Position numbers and translations under genes: made by a program. Shown one piece after another: positions 8,141-45,376 of a stretch of 64,000 bases of DNA. Source of the DNA: Arenibacter sp. 6A1 (GTDB lineage Bacteria; Bacteroidota; Bacteroidia; Flavobacteriales; Flavobacteriaceae); assembly GCF_012272855.1 (NCBI RefSeq), contig NZ_JAAXCQ010000003.1, positions 186,001-250,000 of the forward strand. The letters are read 5' to 3'. The notes beneath the pieces are model-generated. The model was not told the DNA's origin. It saw only the letters and a program-made list of their open reading frames with translations, and ran no database searches. Each line of letters opens with the position of its first letter. The first letter of the stretch is position 1.

Positions 8141-8330
8141 ATTTAAAGAGGAAGGATTTGACTGATTGCAACCTCAAATACTGAATTTGTTTTTGGGACT
8201 ATTATAGGAACGGAAATAGGTTCGGCATTCTAAAAATGCTAAAGCAGTTTATGTTGTCTCTACATCGGAATCTCAGCATCCACTCTTCTTTAGTGTACAG
8301 GTCAAATTCTTATTCGTAAAACTAAAGTAA
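8141..8330 (+). promoter_or_regulatory. Candidate SAM-II-type riboswitch with long loop, metK leader
   Basis: The leader opens with GAGG (8148-8151), then GATTTG (8155-8160), TTGCA (8166-8170) and CCTC (8172-8175). This order and spacing match the 5' half of the SAM-II aptamer: P1 stem, GAUUUG loop, UUGCA before the closing strand. A GCTAAAG (8238-8244), like the conserved SAM-II 3' end, lies about 60 bases on, so the loop would be much longer than in classical SAM-II; long-loop variants of this class are known. Two small hairpins fill the gap (GAAC/GTTC at 8208-8222 and GCATT/AATGC at 8225-8239). ATTTGAC (8156-8162) can also pair perfectly with GTCAAAT (8301-8307), which may be an alternative structure. 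The P2 pseudoknot is not clear to me by eye. Confidence 0.45.
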
Positions 8331-9645: not shown

Positions 9646-9675
9646 TAATCACAAAGTTCAAACACTTATTGAATT

Positions 9676-9813
9676 GTTATCAAGAAAGGTGGAGGGAATA
9701 GACCCTTTGAAACCTTAGCAACCCTTTGCCACAATATGCAATGAAGGTGCTAAATTCTATTCGAAAAGGAGATCATCATTGGTGAACTCTAAATGTTTTT
9801 CGGAATAGATAAC
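9676..9813 (+). promoter_or_regulatory. SAM-I (S-box) riboswitch upstream of metY
   Basis: The aptamer shows the conserved SAM-I order. GTTATCAAGAAAGGTGGAGGG opens it (P1 strand and K-turn side; first base at 9676). Then come GACCCTTTGAAACCTTAGCAA, the P3 region, AAGGTGCTAAATTC, a long P4 arm, and GATAAC (9808-9813), which closes P1 by pairing with GTTAT. It lies 131 bases before the metY start. The expression platform is not obvious: the AATTAC/GTAATT hairpin at about 9819-9835 followed by a T-rich stretch is only a weak terminator candidate. Confidence 0.93.
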
Positions 9814-24227: not shown

Positions 24228-24363
24228 TATTACTTTCCTTAATTTTAAAAGTAGCTAAGATGCTACAATGCACCCTTCAAAGCATTAAAAACCCTTCAAT
24301 TTGCTTGCTTTTGCCGTTGTTGTTACGTTACTTTGTAGCTTGTTCATTACCAAATTGTAAAAC

Positions 24364-24514
24364 GTTATCAAGAAAGGCGGAGGGATTAGACCCAATGAAG
24401 CCTTAGCAACCCTTTTTTCCAAGCCAATAACTCTCGGAAGGAATAAAGAAGGTGCTACTTTCTAATCCTGTCAAGTTGCCCATAAGGGGTCTTCGTGGCA
24501 CAGGAATAGATAAC
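24364..24514 (+). promoter_or_regulatory. SAM-I (S-box) riboswitch upstream of the split metH operon
   Basis: The same conserved order as the metY copy: GTTATCAAGAAAGGCGGAGG (from 24364), GACCCAATGAAGCCTTAGCAA, GAAGGTGCTACTTTC, a P4 arm, and closing GATAAC (24509-24514), which pairs with GTTATC. A hairpin at 24615-24639 lies between it and the coding region and may be the expression platform. An imperfect -7 element, TTACTTTG, is found at 24328-24335. Confidence 0.93.
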
Positions 24515-24614
24515 AAAAGAAACCAGGGTCAACCACTTTTCCTTTACTTGATATTTATTAATTTTTAAACTACCGTTTCTCTTGGCGTGCCCTTTAGTAT
24601 TCGGTTACCAGTTT

Positions 24615-39975: not shown

Positions 39976-40881
39976 TTATGATTGCGAAGCTTGGGTGAGT
40001 TCGGTAAACAAACTTTCTAGGTTTTTATTTTTTCTGCTCAATTGTAGCGTTTTTAATTCGTTGTCATGGGCAAAGTCGAAAACCACGGCTCGCATATCCT
40101 TAGTGGTGTCAAAAGTTATCTCATAGATAAACCCACCGGTATTGATAACATTGGTAGCGTAGGGTAGTTTCTTAAGAAATGCTTCTTCAACCCTAAAATC
40201 AAATTCAACCAGTAATACTTGTTCTTCGTCCTTTCTAAGATCCGATAGCCTTTTATCGGCGACTAGGCATCCTTTGTCAATAATGAGCACCCGATCGCAA
40301 ACAGCTTCTACCTCTTTCATAATATGTGTCGATAGTAGAATGGTTTTTTCTTTCCCGATTTCCAGAATTAATTTTCTGATTTCAAGCAACTGGTTAGGAT
40401 CCAGACCTGTAGTGGGTTCGTCTAAGATTAAGACTTTCGGATCGTGTAAAAGGGCAGCGGCCAGGCCTACTCTTTGGCGATACCCCTTAGAAAGTTGTCC
40501 TATTTTTTTATGGGCTTCCGGTCCTAGCCCCGTTTGTTCAATTACTGTAGAAATATTCTCCTTACTAACCTTATATACCTCGGCATTGAAATTTAAGTAT
40601 TCCTTTACATACATATCTAGGTATAATGGGTTGTGTTCCGCGAGGTAACCAATACTCTTTTGGACATTCTTTTTATCCTTGGCTACATCGAATGAATTTA
40701 CATAGGCCTCACCGCTATCGGCCTGGTGATAGGTCGTTAATACCTTCATCATGGTAGATTTTCCTGCCCCATTAGGACCTAAGAAGCCTACAATCTCACC
40801 TTTGTTAATGGTAAAGCTAACGTTATTCAGGGCTTTTGTGTTGCCAAAGGATTTACTGATGTTTTTTACGGTAATCGACAT
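39976..40881 (-). CDS. gldA: Gliding motility ABC transporter ATP-binding protein GldA
   Basis: The ATPase of the GldAFG transporter required for gliding in many Flavobacteriia. The 301-residue protein has Walker A GPNGAGKST at 35-43, FSIGYLAEHNPLYLDMYVKEYL-type Q-loop region near 80, signature LSKGYRQRVGLAAALL (Lys where the second Gly of LSGGQ usually is) and Walker B VLILDEPTTGLDP. The C-terminal part (from about 225) is the GldA-specific tail, KNLESLFTELT. The frame is open six codons further upstream, but MSITVKNISKSFG is the family start. gldF and gldG are not in the window. gldB and gldC lie 17 kb away. Confidence 0.92.
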   Translation of the reverse strand: MSITVKNISKSFGNTKALNNVSFTINKGEIVGFLGPNGAGKSTMMKVLTTYHQADSGEAYVNSFDVAKDKKNVQKSIGYLAEHNPLYLDMYVKEYLNFNAEVYKVSKENISTVIEQTGLGPEAHKKIGQLSKGYRQRVGLAAALLHDPKVLILDEPTTGLDPNQLLEIRKLILEIGKEKTILLSTHIMKEVEAVCDRVLIIDKGCLVADKRLSDLRKDEEQVLLVEFDFRVEEAFLKKLPYATNVINTGGFIYEITFDTTKDMRAVVFDFAHDNELKTLQLSRKNKNLESLFTELTQASQS

Positions 40882-41157
40882 AGCGTGTGTTTTGATCAAA
40901 AATAAAGCAAAATAATGAAAGGGAGATTTGAAAGATAGTTATTCTTAAAATAGCTGATTTACAGTTCTTCTGGAGTCATTGTAGCCTTCAAAAAGACCAT
41001 TTTGGAAATGTAGGGGTTCAATATTCGTAAATTTAGGCGGTACTTATAGGAAGAATTCATAAAAATGTTCCACTGAAAATAAATATTGTAAAAAAAAGAT
41101 GTTTAGCGAAGCAGTTTTTTAAATTTAATGATTACTTTAGCTGAACATTTACGAATA
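40882..41157. other. Divergent spacer between gldA and the aromatic attenuator
   Basis: CAAAAATA (40897-40904), the complement of TATTTTTG, may be the gldA -7 element. TACTTTAG at 41132-41139 is a near match for the aromatic operon promoter. No gene is seen here. Confidence 0.4.
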
Positions 41158-41229
41158 ATGACAAAACAATATTTCTGGATCGGTTTTTATTTTAACTTCT
41201 TTTTTCAAAGAGGCATGGGACTGTTCTAG
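41158..41229 (+). CDS. Phe/Tyr/Trp-rich leader peptide of the aromatic operon
   Basis: A 23-codon frame from ATG to TAG that is too short for ordinary gene calling. It encodes 7 Phe, 2 Tyr and 1 Trp; residues 5-16 run YFWIGFYFNFFF. This is the composition of attenuator leader peptides such as PheL of enteric bacteria. Its last codons overlap the GGGACT segment (41217-41222) that can pair with AGTCCC in the terminator stem downstream. Ribosome stalling on the Phe codons during Phe-tRNA shortage would leave that segment free and prevent termination. The message continues into pheA. The role is inferred from composition, position and pairing. Confidence 0.85.
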   Translation: MTKQYFWIGFYFNFFFQRGMGLF

Positions 41230-41254
41230 CATATTTTAAAGTATATATATAGAT

Positions 41255-41288
41255 AAAAGTCCCGTGAAAACTGGGACTTTTTTTTTGG
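41255..41288 (+). terminator. Attenuator terminator before pheA
   Basis: AAAAGTCCC pairs with GGGACTTTT around GTGAAAACT and is followed by a long T-run. The 5' arm AGTCCC (41258-41263) can instead pair with GGGACT at 41217-41222 inside the leader peptide frame, so terminator and antiterminator exclude each other. Confidence 0.88.
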
Positions 41289-41326
41289 AATAAATTGATT
41301 GAAGTTTCCCTTTAGGAAAAAAAGAA

Positions 41327-42157
41327 ATGGCATTGAAAATAGCGATACAAGGAATAAAAGGTTCAAATCACCATCAGGTTGCAAGGGACTATTTTGGGGA
41401 TGAAGTAGATTTGGTAGAATGTTCGTCATTTGACCTTTTGGTAGAACATTTATTGAATAAAACAGCAGATAAGGGAATTATGGCCATAGAAAATTCTATT
41501 GCCGGATCTATTATTCCTAATTACGCCTTAGTGTTTAGTAAAAACCTTCATATTATAGGGGAACACTATTTAAATATCCATCATAATTTGATGGTATTGA
41601 AGGGGCAGACCTTAGAGGATATTAAAGAAGTGCATTCGCATCCTATGGCACTGTTGCAATGCAAGGACTTTTTTAGGAATTATAAACATATTAAATTGGT
41701 AGAGGATGTAGATACTGCAGAGACCGCCAAGAGAATTCAAGAGGGGCAATTAAGGGGAATAGCGGCCATAGCGCCTAAGGTTGCGGCAGAATTGTACGAT
41801 TTAGAGATCATCGAGGCCAACATTCAGACCATAAAGGACAACTCTACCAGATTTATTGTGGTAAAGACTCAAAATAAAGTTTTGCCCGAATCTGCCATCA
41901 ATAAGGCATCTGTACGATTTATTACAGATCATAAACGAGGGAGTTTGGCAGCTATATTAAATGTGATGAGCGATTGTAATTTAAACCTAACAAAAATACA
42001 ATCCCTACCAGTGATAGAAATGCCGTGGAAATATTCCTTTTTTGTGGATGTTACCTTTGAGAAGTACAAAAATTTTGAAAAGGCAAAAGCCCTTTTACAG
42101 ATTATGTCAGAAGAATTTAAAGTTTTAGGAGAATATAAAAATGCAAGAATAATATGA
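41327..42157 (+). CDS. pheA: Prephenate dehydratase
   Basis: Converts prephenate to phenylpyruvate for Phe synthesis. The 276-residue protein has the catalytic domain (residues 1-185: ENSIAGSIIPNYALV near 46, EVHSHPMALLQCKDFF near 102, and the active-site TRF in DNSTRFIVVKT near 180) and an ACT domain (residues 195-276, RGSLAAILNVMSDCNLNLTKIQSLP) for Phe feedback. No chorismate mutase is attached; that activity is fused to DAHP synthase three genes on. It is first after the Phe attenuator. The stop overlaps the next start (ATGA). Confidence 0.95.
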   Translation: MALKIAIQGIKGSNHHQVARDYFGDEVDLVECSSFDLLVEHLLNKTADKGIMAIENSIAGSIIPNYALVFSKNLHIIGEHYLNIHHNLMVLKGQTLEDIKEVHSHPMALLQCKDFFRNYKHIKLVEDVDTAETAKRIQEGQLRGIAAIAPKVAAELYDLEIIEANIQTIKDNSTRFIVVKTQNKVLPESAINKASVRFITDHKRGSLAAILNVMSDCNLNLTKIQSLPVIEMPWKYSFFVDVTFEKYKNFEKAKALLQIMSEEFKVLGEYKNARII

Positions 42158-43296
42158 TTGCCGCAGACAGACTAAATACCGTTGAAGAGTACTATTTCTC
42201 GAAAAAACTTAGAGAGGTAAGAGGATTAATGGCAGAAGGAAGGCCAATAATTAATATGGGTATCGGAAGTCCAGATCTGGATCCGTCCATAGAAGTGCTT
42301 AATGTTGTAAAGGAAGCCCTTAACCATGACGGGGCCCACCAATATCAAAGTTATCAGGGCTTGCCAGAATTAAGGGCCTCTTTTGCCAGTTTTTATAAGA
42401 ATAAATTTGACGTGGTGATTGATCCTGCAACCGAAGTTTTGCCGTTAATGGGATCTAAGGAAGGTATTATGCATATAAGCTTGGCATTTCTAAATCCGGG
42501 CGATGAGGTATTGATTCCGAACCCTGGATACCCAACTTATACTTCGGTGACCAATTTAGTAGGGGCAGTAGGGAAATATTATGACTTGGTAGGTGAACAG
42601 CAATGGTTTCCGGATTTAGAAAAATTGCAGCAGCAAGATCTTTCTAAGGTAAAAATTATGTGGACCTGTTACCCTCATATGCCAACGGGTGCCACCGCTA
42701 GCTTGGAGCAATTACAAAAGCTGGTTGCTTTTGCTAAAAAGAACGATATTTTATTAGTGAACGACAACCCTTATAGTTTTGTGTTAAATGACAACCCTAT
42801 AAGTATATTAAATATAGAGGGTGCCAAGGAGGTAGCCATAGAGCTAAACTCACTAAGCAAGACCTTCAATATGGCCGGATGGCGTGTTGGAATGATATTA
42901 GGGAATGCAGACCATATTAATGCCGTTTTAAAGGTAAAGAGCAATATGGATTCGGGAATGTTTTACGGCATTCAAAAAGGCGCCATAGCAGCATTAAATA
43001 GTGACGATTCTTGGTTTAAGGAATTAAATAAAATTTATGGCCAAAGAAGGGATTTAATCTATTTGCTGGCCGATAAGCTAAACTGTGTGTACGATAAAAA
43101 TTCGGTAGGGATGTTTGTTTGGGCTAAATTGCCCGAAGGAATCCAATCGGCAGAGAAGTTTATCGATGAGGTCTTGTACGATAAAAATATCTTTATTACT
43201 CCTGGGACCATTTTTGGATCTAATGGAGAAGGATATATCAGGTTCTCCCTGTGTGTGACAGCCGAGAAAATTAAAGAGGCGATAAGTAGATTTTAA
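42154..43296 (+). CDS. Class I/II aminotransferase, probably aromatic
   Basis: A 380-residue fold-type I PLP enzyme. Motifs: INMGIGSPDLDPS near residue 32, PNPGYPTYTSV near 126, NDNPYSFVLND near 207, PLP lysine Lys236 in NSLSKTFNMAGWRVG, and GYIRFSLCV near the C-terminus. The sequence class includes LL-diaminopimelate aminotransferases and aspartate/aromatic aminotransferases. Between pheA and tyrA its most likely job is transamination of phenylpyruvate and 4-hydroxyphenylpyruvate. It overlaps pheA by four bases. Substrate is inferred from context. Confidence 0.9.
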   Translation: MIAADRLNTVEEYYFSKKLREVRGLMAEGRPIINMGIGSPDLDPSIEVLNVVKEALNHDGAHQYQSYQGLPELRASFASFYKNKFDVVIDPATEVLPLMGSKEGIMHISLAFLNPGDEVLIPNPGYPTYTSVTNLVGAVGKYYDLVGEQQWFPDLEKLQQQDLSKVKIMWTCYPHMPTGATASLEQLQKLVAFAKKNDILLVNDNPYSFVLNDNPISILNIEGAKEVAIELNSLSKTFNMAGWRVGMILGNADHINAVLKVKSNMDSGMFYGIQKGAIAALNSDDSWFKELNKIYGQRRDLIYLLADKLNCVYDKNSVGMFVWAKLPEGIQSAEKFIDEVLYDKNIFITPGTIFGSNGEGYIRFSLCVTAEKIKEAISRF

Positions 43297-43424: not shown

Positions 43425-44291
43425 ATGAATTTATTTGTAATCGGAATTGGGCTCATTGGGGGGTCTATGGCAAAAGACGTAAAACGTCTGCGTCCCAATA
43501 CCAAAATTTTTGGAATAGATGCCATTGAAGCGCATCTGGAAGAGGCCTTGTCTTTGTCCCTGATCGATGAGAAGTCGGATTATAGCGAGCTTCATAAGGC
43601 CGATATGGTAATGGTCAGTATTCCTGTAGACGTAATGGTACAGGAATTGCCCAAAATATTGGATGCGGTAAACGACGATGCCGTGGTCATCGATGCGGGG
43701 TCTACCAAAGCCTTAATTTGCAGTGTTTTGGAAGATCATCCTAAAAGAAGAAACTTTTTGGCCTGCCACCCGATCTCGGGAACAGAATTTTCTGGTCCTT
43801 CGGCAGCGATTGAAGGTTTGTATTATGGAAAAACAAATATTATTTGTGAGGTAGAAAAAACGGCCTTTAAACTACAGGAAAGAGCATTGGAGCTCTTTCA
43901 GGAATTAGGAATGCGCATCCGTTATATGAATCCTAAGGCACATGACAAGCATATTGCTTATGTTTCTCATTTATCACACATTAGTTCATTTATGTTAGGA
44001 AAGACGGTTATTGAAAAAGAGAAGAATGAACGTGATATTTTTGACATGGCGGGAAGTGGATTTGAAAGCACGGTGCGCTTGGCAAAAAGTTCCCCTGCCA
44101 TGTGGACGCCTATTTTTCGACAAAATAAGGAGAACGTGGTAGAAACCTTAGGGGAGTATATCCAAAACCTCCAAGCTTTCGAAAAAATGCTGATCGCAGA
44201 TGATTACGAAGGCATTTATAAAGAAATGACCAGTACCAATAAGATTAAAGAAATATTAAACGGAATACCACTTAACAAAAAAAGAGTATAG
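43425..44291 (+). CDS. tyrA: Prephenate dehydrogenase
   Basis: Oxidatively decarboxylates prephenate to 4-hydroxyphenylpyruvate for Tyr synthesis. The 288-residue protein has a Rossmann motif at the start (VIGIGLIGGSMAKDVK), VIDAGSTKALI near residue 88, FLACHPISGTEFSGPSAA near 110 and DMAGSGFESTVRLAKSSPAMW near 205, all standard TyrA features. It has no ACT domain. The 128-base gap to the aminotransferase gene holds a small hairpin (TGTCC/GGACA) but no clear promoter, so it is taken as part of the attenuated operon. Confidence 0.94.
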   Translation: MNLFVIGIGLIGGSMAKDVKRLRPNTKIFGIDAIEAHLEEALSLSLIDEKSDYSELHKADMVMVSIPVDVMVQELPKILDAVNDDAVVIDAGSTKALICSVLEDHPKRRNFLACHPISGTEFSGPSAAIEGLYYGKTNIICEVEKTAFKLQERALELFQELGMRIRYMNPKAHDKHIAYVSHLSHISSFMLGKTVIEKEKNERDIFDMAGSGFESTVRLAKSSPAMWTPIFRQNKENVVETLGEYIQNLQAFEKMLIADDYEGIYKEMTSTNKIKEILNGIPLNKKRV

Positions 44292-44293
44292 AA

Positions 44294-45376
44294 ATGGAAA
44301 ATTCAAAACAAATGAGAACATGGTTGGACGATATGAAATTGGACCATCCATTAGTAATTGCCGGACCATGTAGTGCGGAAACAGAGGAGCAAGTACTAAG
44401 GATTGCCCACGAGTTAAAAGATACAGACGTCAATTATTTCCGTGCTGGTATTTGGAAACCAAGAACGCGTCCAGGAATGTTTGAAGGAGTAGGATCTTTA
44501 GGTTTAAAGTGGTTACAAAAAGTAAAGGAAGAAACGGGTATGAAAACGGCTACGGAAGTTGCTAACAAAGCCCATGTAGAATTGGCTTTGGAGCACGATG
44601 TAGATCTGCTTTGGATTGGTGCACGTTCTACGGTTAGTCCGTTTATAATTCAAGAAATTGCCGATGCCTTAAAAGGGACCGATAAAATAGTTTTGGTGAA
44701 AAACCCGGTAAACCCGGATTTAGCCTTGTGGTTAGGAGCTGTGGAGCGTTTGCATACGGCCGATATCAAAAACCTAGGGGTTATTCATAGAGGATTCTCT
44801 ACTTATGAGAAAACAAAATACAGAAATATTCCAGAGTGGCAAATGGCTATTGAGTTACAGACAAAATTCCCTGATTTGCCAATCATTAACGACCCATCAC
44901 ATATTACTGGTAACAGAGATATGATCTTTGATGTATCGCAAACAGCATTGGATCTAAATTTCGACGGATTAATGATCGAAACGCATTTCGATCCTGATAA
45001 TGCATGGAGTGATGCTGCACAACAAGTAACTCCAGCGAAATTGGTGCAAATCATGAAAGATTTGAAAATCAGAAAAGAGACCAACGAAGAAATGGAATAC
45101 AATAGCAAGCTAACAAATCTAAGAGCACAGATTGATGTTATTGACAATCAATTAATCGATACTCTTGGGAAAAGAATGAAGATAGCTGATGGTATTGGAG
45201 CTCTTAAAAAACAAAAGAACGTTGCCGTATTACAAAGCAATAGATGGAACGCTATTTTAGGCAATATGATCTTGGAAGGAGAATCTAAAGGATTGAGCGA
45301 AGAATTCATTCTTAAAATGTTCAAAGCAATTCACCAAGAATCGATCAACCACCAAGAGAAAATTATCAACTCTTAA
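44294..45376 (+). CDS. Bifunctional DAHP synthase / chorismate mutase (type II)
   Basis: Catalyses the first step of the shikimate pathway and the branch to prephenate. In the 360-residue protein, residues 1-260 are a class I-beta DAHP synthase (VIAGPCSAETEEQVL near 20, GIWKPRTRPGMFEGVG near 53, IINDPSHITGNRDMI near 196). Residues 272-360 are an AroQ chorismate mutase (LRAQIDVIDNQLIDTLGKRMKI, HQESINHQEKIIN). Such fusions let prephenate feed back on the synthase. It starts two bases after tyrA and ends the operon at a strong terminator, so pathway entry is controlled together with the Phe and Tyr branches. Confidence 0.95.
   Translation: MENSKQMRTWLDDMKLDHPLVIAGPCSAETEEQVLRIAHELKDTDVNYFRAGIWKPRTRPGMFEGVGSLGLKWLQKVKEETGMKTATEVANKAHVELALEHDVDLLWIGARSTVSPFIIQEIADALKGTDKIVLVKNPVNPDLALWLGAVERLHTADIKNLGVIHRGFSTYEKTKYRNIPEWQMAIELQTKFPDLPIINDPSHITGNRDMIFDVSQTALDLNFDGLMIETHFDPDNAWSDAAQQVTPAKLVQIMKDLKIRKETNEEMEYNSKLTNLRAQIDVIDNQLIDTLGKRMKIADGIGALKKQKNVAVLQSNRWNAILGNMILEGESKGLSEEFILKMFKAIHQESINHQEKIINS

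Follow-up and report, generated by a model that had tools for sequence, protein, structure and literature searches.

A probable ribosome-controlled transcription attenuator with an aromatic leader peptide upstream of pheA in Arenibacter and other Bacteroidia

Leader-peptide attenuators and the pheA locus of Arenibacter

Leader-peptide attenuators are known in Escherichia coli from pheL-pheA/pheST and from trpL. Work on leader-peptide attenuation has mostly concerned Proteobacteria and Actinobacteria; according to the cited part of a 2010 survey, its authors knew of no case demonstrated outside these groups before their own in Firmicutes, ermC aside (PMC2965389). Strong clues of leader-peptide attenuation at amino-acid operons were obtained in a 2021 transcriptome of Flavobacterium psychrophilum, the main text of which states that the 5' elements of pheA and hisG occur in other Flavobacteriaceae genera and have no Rfam hits (PMC9723704). 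The pheA element in that study belongs to the same gene in the same family as the leader described below, and in outline the existence of a pheA attenuator is already published there; the sequence-only reading from which our analysis started knew of no well-studied Phe case in Bacteroidota, and such a case is thus not wholly unreported. For the pheA element, the main text gives neither the leader sequence nor its codons, and it is silent on geometry, on covariation and on occurrence outside the family. Elsewhere in the phylum, in Bacteroides thetaiotaomicron, sORFs located within long 5' UTRs were called reminiscent of leader peptides, the example in the cited part of that paper being the hypothetical protein gene BT_4401 and not an aromatic operon (PMC7366714). 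Judged by titles and the beginnings of abstracts, none of the papers found in our full-text searches treats the leader codons, the covariation, the class-wide spread or the Trp-Trp variant. Apparently new are the class-wide extent, the geometry, the covariation, the mixture of aromatic codons, the switch in codons and the lack of a detectable 1:2 hairpin.

The window analysed here is a stretch of 64,000 nucleotides from Arenibacter sp. 6A1 (contig NZ_JAAXCQ010000003.1, positions 186,001 to 250,000), and the features of its pheA locus are collected in Table 1. Like the E. coli pheL-pheA/pheST systems, the locus combines a Phe-rich leader, a terminator before pheA and a mutually exclusive antiterminator. 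In the family leaders, unlike pheL and trpL, region 2, the 5' arm of the putative antiterminator, is mostly in-frame and lies directly past the sensor codons, and 1:2 pairing was not detected. A further difference from pheL is that Tyr and often Trp codons are mixed in, with an operon that holds tyrA and DAHP synthase.

Every sequence detail of the sequence-only reading was confirmed in the window. The frame of 23 codons with seven Phe, two Tyr and one Trp codons matches the translated sequence base for base, and the cluster of Phe codons had been placed correctly at 41185-41205 (the last sensor codon is 41203-41205). The terminator 25 bases past the stop codon, followed by a T-run, is present as described and is the sole terminator-like site between 40900 and 41400, where shuffled sequences average 0.2. 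The proposed exclusive pairing of GGGACT (41217-41222) with AGTCCC (41258-41263) also held; in the predicted fold of the nascent RNA it extends to 9 bp (41214-41222 with 41258-41266), with region 2 inside the leader frame and 8 nt past the last sensor codon, and it covaries among relatives. The label "translational attenuator" had to be given up: the predicted output is transcription termination, so the element would be a transcription attenuator.

Table 1. Features of the pheA locus in the window
Feature	Position	Strand	Basis or remark
ABC-transporter ATPase gene, divergent, adjoining the attenuator	39976-40899	-	PF00005
Putative -7 promoter element TACTTTAG	41133-41140	+	One mismatch to TANNTTTG
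Leader peptide frame MTKQYFWIGFYFNFFFQRGMGLF	41158-41229	+	ATG 41158-41160, TAG 41227-41229
Sensor codons Tyr5 Phe6 Trp7, Phe10 Tyr11 Phe12, Phe14 Phe15 Phe16	41170-41205	+	Translation
Region 2 CATGGGACT, putative antiterminator 5' arm	41214-41222	+	Nascent-RNA fold; covariation with region 3
Region 3 AGTCCCGTG, common to putative antiterminator and terminator	41258-41266	+	Nascent-RNA fold; covariation
Predicted intrinsic terminator: regions 3 and 4 as stem (41255-41281), then T-run	41255-41287	+	Terminator search
Prephenate dehydratase gene pheA, at the head of the operon	41327-42157	+	PF00800, E 1.6e-57
Class I/II aminotransferase	42154-43296	+	PF00155
tyrA, prephenate dehydrogenase	43425-44291	+	PF02153/PF20463; NF006307 over its cut-off
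DAHP synthase-chorismate mutase fusion, pathway entry	44294-45376	+	PF00793 and PF01817

We consider it very likely, with a probability of roughly 0.92 on the comparative evidence below, that the pheA leader region is a ribosome-controlled transcription attenuator. RNA polymerase would transcribe the leader with a ribosome trailing through the aromatic-rich frame. With charged tRNAs for Phe, Tyr and probably Trp available, the ribosome would arrive at the stop codon and cover region 2, and regions 3 and 4 would then pair as a terminator ahead of pheA. When an aromatic tRNA is scarce, the ribosome would stall on the sensor codons, its leading edge reaching region 2 or stopping shortly before it; the exposed region 2 would capture the emerging region 3, formation of the terminator would be blocked, and the operon of pheA, the aminotransferase, tyrA and DAHPS/CM would be transcribed. 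The sequences show the parts with their conservation, covariation and geometry, and a change of sensor codons with the content of the pathway; from these we infer that leader translation, stalling, termination and antitermination proceed in this way in living cells. An input from Trp is suggested by the codon content and by the Trp-Trp leaders of relatives that lack pheA and tyrA. In Bacteroidota, described in the cited part of one paper as being without Shine-Dalgarno sequences (PMC6847099), attenuation of the aromatic operon would presuppose tight coupling of transcription and translation.

The sequence TANNTTTG, which we take to be the Bacteroidota -7 promoter consensus, has its putative counterpart upstream of the window leader, and transcription would start near 41147. 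The TTAGC of this putative promoter is unchanged in all 18 sequences of the genus. At the level of the family, a TANNTTTG-like site with at most one mismatch lies within 60 nt 5' of the leader in 83 of 86 cases, which is weak evidence because 43 of 88 control windows have one too. Terminated leader transcripts would be about 140 nt long. The leader peptide peTrpL of Sinorhizobium meliloti has an in-trans role, as stated in the cited part of the source (PMC7298713), and a variant of the attenuation reading in which the released leader RNA or peptide has a second role in trans seems to us improbable.

Distribution and codon content of the leader

We searched upstream of pheA for an aromatic sORF of 10 to 45 codons followed by a terminator, with dinucleotide shuffles as controls. 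The family sample consisted of 100 genomes, one per genus, and pheA was found in 88 of them; two loci (L033 and L107) were exchanged for longer stretches of the same genomes (L254 and L255), where the leader lies farther upstream. A leader with a terminator was recognised in 86 of the 88 pheA-bearing genomes, compared with 11 of 3,520 shuffles, a difference that rules out chance. These values refer to the final rule, which allows three G-U pairs and under which the shuffles were recomputed; a stricter first pass, limited to two G-U pairs, gave 83 of 88 genomes and 1 of 440 shuffles. When the search was made with single amino acids, Phe alone gave 61 of the 88 genomes and each other amino acid at most 9. 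Runs of histidine codons in the genome of Arenibacter sp. 6A1 amounted to 30 sites compared with 19 in a reversed control, and were set aside as unspecific.

The two family genomes without the leader are G037, the only one in which pheA is unlinked to DAHP synthase, and G049, a genome of 1.6 Mb and 91% completeness whose contig stops 382 bases 5' of pheA. A DAHP synthase gene lies within 4 kb 3' of pheA and on the same strand in 87 of the 88 genomes, in agreement with the earlier suggestion that one peptide would govern the entry of the pathway and both of its branches. The organisation between these genes varies. In nine family genomes (G023, G028, G053, G070, G073, G084, G093, G107, G115) the end of pheA and DAHP synthase are 41-161 bases apart, which leaves no space for the aminotransferase and tyrA between them, and the leader is retained. 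In the two genomes represented by the longer stretches, G029 (L255) and G087 (L254), several hundred bases separate the terminator of the attenuator from pheA; visual inspection of this stretch in G029 showed several inverted repeats resembling ATCCCGCC...GGCGGGAT as well as a AGTGAAACGTTCATTTTA stretch that recurs.

The leader is found at narrower and wider taxonomic ranges. All 18 genomes of the genus have pheA, and all 18 keep the leader and terminator. In a sample of the order, pheA is present in 32 of 59 genomes, and the leader and terminator were found in 9 of 10 genomes of other families and in 8 of 8 extra genomes of the same family. Two additional same-family genomes (L308 and L311) have both. 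Neither leader nor terminator was detected upstream of pheA in any of six genomes of 0.6 Mb (L062, L064, L065, L066, L069, L070) or in any of the six examined, out of seven, from family f4 (L073-L077, L093), which is consistent with lost regulation in the reduced genomes and with divergence of the f4 pheA. Most genomes from other orders of the class gave no recognisable pheA (it was found in 57 of 197 and 17 of 60, nearer relatives counted in). Of 48 other-order genomes examined, a number that leaves out two pheA-bearing ones (G287 and G303), 34 have the leader and terminator, compared with 1 of 480 shuffles; among the 14 misses, L271 and L297 at least have a leader-like frame without a called terminator. 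Outside the class, 77 genomes have pheA, and one of the seven examined has the leader and terminator. This one, G420 (locus L316), belongs to another class of the same phylum and has a high-scoring pheA together with the aromatic leader MTKNFSTYSPFFYFGYFYFIYPKKGTCMVLR and a terminator; it possibly reflects horizontal transfer. In a named set that overlaps the other sets, 77 of 78 loci score, the set being the best 80 of 590 confirmed relatives minus two without upstream sequence (L186 and L202). From these sequence comparisons the class Bacteroidia appears to run its aromatic pathway by leader-peptide attenuation, and the leader could serve throughout the class as a simple means of annotating aromatic operons under regulation and probable auxotrophs.

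Phe and Tyr codons occur in all 86 family leaders and Trp codons in 62, with TTT/TTC used 330 and 153 times and TAT/TAC 247 and 59 times. Control by Phe, as first proposed, thus holds in that every leader contains Phe, but not in the sense of Phe only. The T-rich tract and the TTT/TTC codons for Phe could also be taken to mean that the site is a constitutive premature terminator or a processing site, with the aromatic frame as a by-product of T-richness. The rarity of frame plus terminator among the 3,520 family shuffles speaks against this, as do the Trp-Trp leaders described below, which are not T-rich runs. The mean aromatic codon fraction of the family leaders is 40% in frame against 13% and 18% off-frame, with frame 0 the most aromatic in all 86; this excess is description rather than evidence, because the frames were picked by their aromatic content. 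Taken together, we regard the T-tract explanation as highly improbable.

Within the genus, comparison of the 23 leader codons over 18 genomes gave 8 that are invariant, 6 with synonymous changes only and 9 with replacements. Among codons 5-7 and 10-16, five are invariant, Phe6 and Phe10 change only synonymously, and three have replacements: Trp7 to Gly in one genome, Tyr11 to Ser in two, and codon 13, which is Tyr in 16 genomes and Asn in two, the window among the two. We rejected these codon changes as a proof of translation, the changes being too few and the replacements too many, so that the case for translation is built on the geometry, the codon switch and the comparison with shuffles. 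The locus is very probably a genuine attenuator, and its comparative setting is unusually clear.

The architecture of terminator and antiterminator is one that a ligand-binding riboswitch or a T-box would share. No riboswitch, T-box or leader family of Rfam matches the pheA leader at gathering score. A permissive Rfam search of 41000-41420 gave 21 matches, all of them below gathering score, the top one being BSnc120 on the other strand with 25.2 of 114 bits. The Phe_leader family RF01859 scores 21.8 bits at the window leader (E 0.25, gathering score 55), which does not make it a member, and RF00513, the trpL family, scores 14.5 bits against a gathering score of 41. On these Rfam matches, a terminator governed by a riboswitch or T-box is, in our estimate, extremely improbable. 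Elsewhere in the window, on the + strand, two SAM riboswitches (RF00162) and one SAM-II (RF01726) lie above gathering score, at 9674-9778, 24362-24516 and 8142-8252.

Alternative pairing and ribosome position

The sequence-only reading had proposed looking across Flavobacteriaceae for an aromatic short frame with covarying pairs, and both were found. The 5' arm of the terminator differs among genera (AGTCCC, AGTCTC, AGTCCT, AATCCC, AACCCGG and others) and region 2 changes alongside it (GGGACT, GAGACT, AGGACT, CCGGGTT and others). The 2:3 pairing score in the family is 17.4 when region 2 is combined with its own arm, compared with 13.9 ± 0.29 with arms swapped (200 permutations, maximum 14.9) and 10.8 with a shuffled region-2 window. 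The permutations ignore phylogeny, and kinship was handled by de-duplication only: with one genome for each of 53 distinct types of regions 2 and 3, the score is 17.8 compared with 13.7 ± 0.37, and none of 1,000 permutations is as high. The class set gave 18.8 against 14.5 ± 0.47 (500 permutations, maximum 15.6). As judged from this covariation, the alternative 2:3 pairing is under selection. The terminators themselves have a mean z of -4.9 against shuffles (n = 86 family leaders), a value to be read with the fact that they had been selected beforehand as hairpins.

The position of region 2 follows the sensor codons more closely than the stop codon. In the 86 family leaders its centre lies at a median of 14 nt past the last sensor codon with a standard deviation of 1.8 nt, whereas relative to the stop codon it lies anywhere between 23 nt 5' and 8 nt 3', with a standard deviation of 5.9 nt. 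In shuffled windows the corresponding standard deviations are 12.4 nt (10.5 in the lowest of 100 runs) and 13.4 nt. Region 2 begins 8-12 nt past the last sensor codon in 78 of the 86 leaders and is mostly in-frame.

We modelled the ribosome on the assumption that it covers 15 nt in front of the first P-site base and 14 nt on the other side. With this footprint, a ribosome stalled on the last sensor codon would leave at least 5 nt of region 2 exposed in 84 of 86 leaders, and a ribosome at the stop codon would cover region 2 fully in 76 and partly in 10. In the cited part of an earlier study the ribosome is described as reaching about 12 nt past the codon being translated (PMC4833913). With the front edge set 12 nt beyond the A-site codon, 78 of the 86 leaders leave 5 nt of region 2 open; with 13 nt, 27 leave 5 nt and 78 leave 4 nt. 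In these models the front edge of the stalled ribosome just touches region 2 or ends just short of it.

Free nascent RNA of the window is predicted to adopt the antiterminator, with forced folds of -18.3 kcal/mol for the antiterminator and -16.2 kcal/mol for the terminator, and at equilibrium with all RNA present the 2:3 pairing beats the terminator there (0.86 compared with 0.01). Under the same conditions the 2:3 pairing beats the terminator in 14 of 86 family leaders, and the terminator is favoured in 72. We therefore rejected equilibrium folding as a proof of antitermination; in most leaders the antiterminator must win kinetically, by the order of synthesis. In 55 of the 86, the fold present before synthesis of region 4 equals or exceeds the terminator in stability.

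The classical 1:2 hairpin was not found. Region 2 has no upstream partner in the 86 family leaders that scores above shuffles (8.6 compared with 8.9), and the pheL/trpL logic first attributed to the locus therefore applies to the choice between 2:3 and 3:4 and not to a 1:2 hairpin. Default termination by such a hairpin is not expected, so that loss of leader translation would turn the operon on and not off, a sharp prediction that is the reverse of the trp paradigm. A weak hairpin spans the sensor codons and the spacer in the family leaders (mean z -1.4); it might stand in place of the 1:2 hairpin, and we found no other candidate pause signal.

Trp-Trp leaders in genomes without pheA and tyrA

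No match to pheA was found in 12 of the 100 family genomes, a profile search agreeing for all 12, and for tyrA nothing better than E 0.08 was found in the same 12 genomes. A strong DAHP synthase match is present in 11 of them and a weak one in G068. In 6 of these 11 genomes a leader with a Trp-Trp pair and a terminator stands directly 5' of DAHP synthase (loci L242, L243, L247, L248, L249 and L250; MYNTSLYWWHPYKL and MTTRSNFWWHHITN are examples). Trp-Trp is absent from all 86 leaders of the pheA-bearing genomes, and the search for a Trp-Trp leader with terminator gave 0 of 88 in these genomes; in shuffles it gave 0 of 550 for the pheA-less and 1 of 4,400 for the pheA-bearing genomes.

In the other 5 of the 11 genomes no Trp-Trp leader was found. 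In G103 the frame, MIITVQKHPILIRWRHSLNCC, contains a single Trp and is accompanied by a terminator seen by eye; G100 has the frame MPLNFNFNHNENVW without a called terminator; and in G055, G056 and G065 no leader was recognised 5' of DAHP synthase. Loss of the attenuator can also occur, as shown by those pheA-less genomes in which no leader is recognisable.

The Trp-Trp leaders of the pheA-less relatives resemble E. coli trpL in their Trp-Trp codons and in having region 2 near the stop codon, and differ from it in that they stand before DAHP synthase and not before trpEDCBA. Region 2 begins 23-32 nt past the Trp pair and ends 8-12 nt beyond the stop codon; its pairing with region 3 is retained.

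A leader containing YWWH occurs in 6 of 7 genomes labelled as the genus of G066, the absence of pheA having been searched in G066 alone. In the seventh, G464, a genome of 55% completeness, pheA immediately precedes DAHP synthase and the leader is rich in Phe and Tyr. The contrast between G464 and its six Trp-Trp relatives within one genus was weakened by a tree of DAHP synthase, in which G464 falls outside the clade of the six (support 100/100), and there is therefore no clean within-genus contrast. In the same tree the 11 Trp-Trp genomes are not one clade, their joint grouping being rejected with p-AU 0.0013, and G047 is separate from the other ten. The Trp-Trp state requires three changes on the tree, gains or losses, when set against the pheA rows and four against all rows. 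We read this, from the sequences and the tree, as sensor codons that follow the products still made by the cell, more than once.

These leaders also bear on the nature of the sensor. It is possible that the frame and terminator are real and that sensing occurs by arrest of the nascent peptide, as in TnaC, instead of by shortage of charged tRNA, and the good conservation of the leader within the genus would fit such a mechanism. Arrest peptides usually keep specific residues. The peptides of the family, by contrast, vary widely outside the aromatic cluster, and the aromatic residues themselves differ (WW) where pheA and tyrA are absent. We therefore hold peptide arrest to be very unlikely and retain ribosome-controlled attenuation by charged-tRNA shortage as the preferred reading.

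The observations lead us to speculate, at about even odds, that the attenuator is old within the Bacteroidia and differs in construction from the trp and phe attenuators of Proteobacteria, with Phe, Tyr and Trp sensed by one peptide, no 1:2 hairpin, and codons that evolution retunes to the remaining pathway. On this reading, with the loss of pheA and tyrA most Phe and Tyr codons would vanish and a Trp-Trp pair would appear before DAHP synthase, in more than one lineage. The Trp-Trp leaders of genomes without pheA and tyrA represent a natural experiment on the role of the sensor codons. Upstream of several of them, what appears by eye to be the beginning of a divergent gene resembles the ABC ATPase gene of the window.
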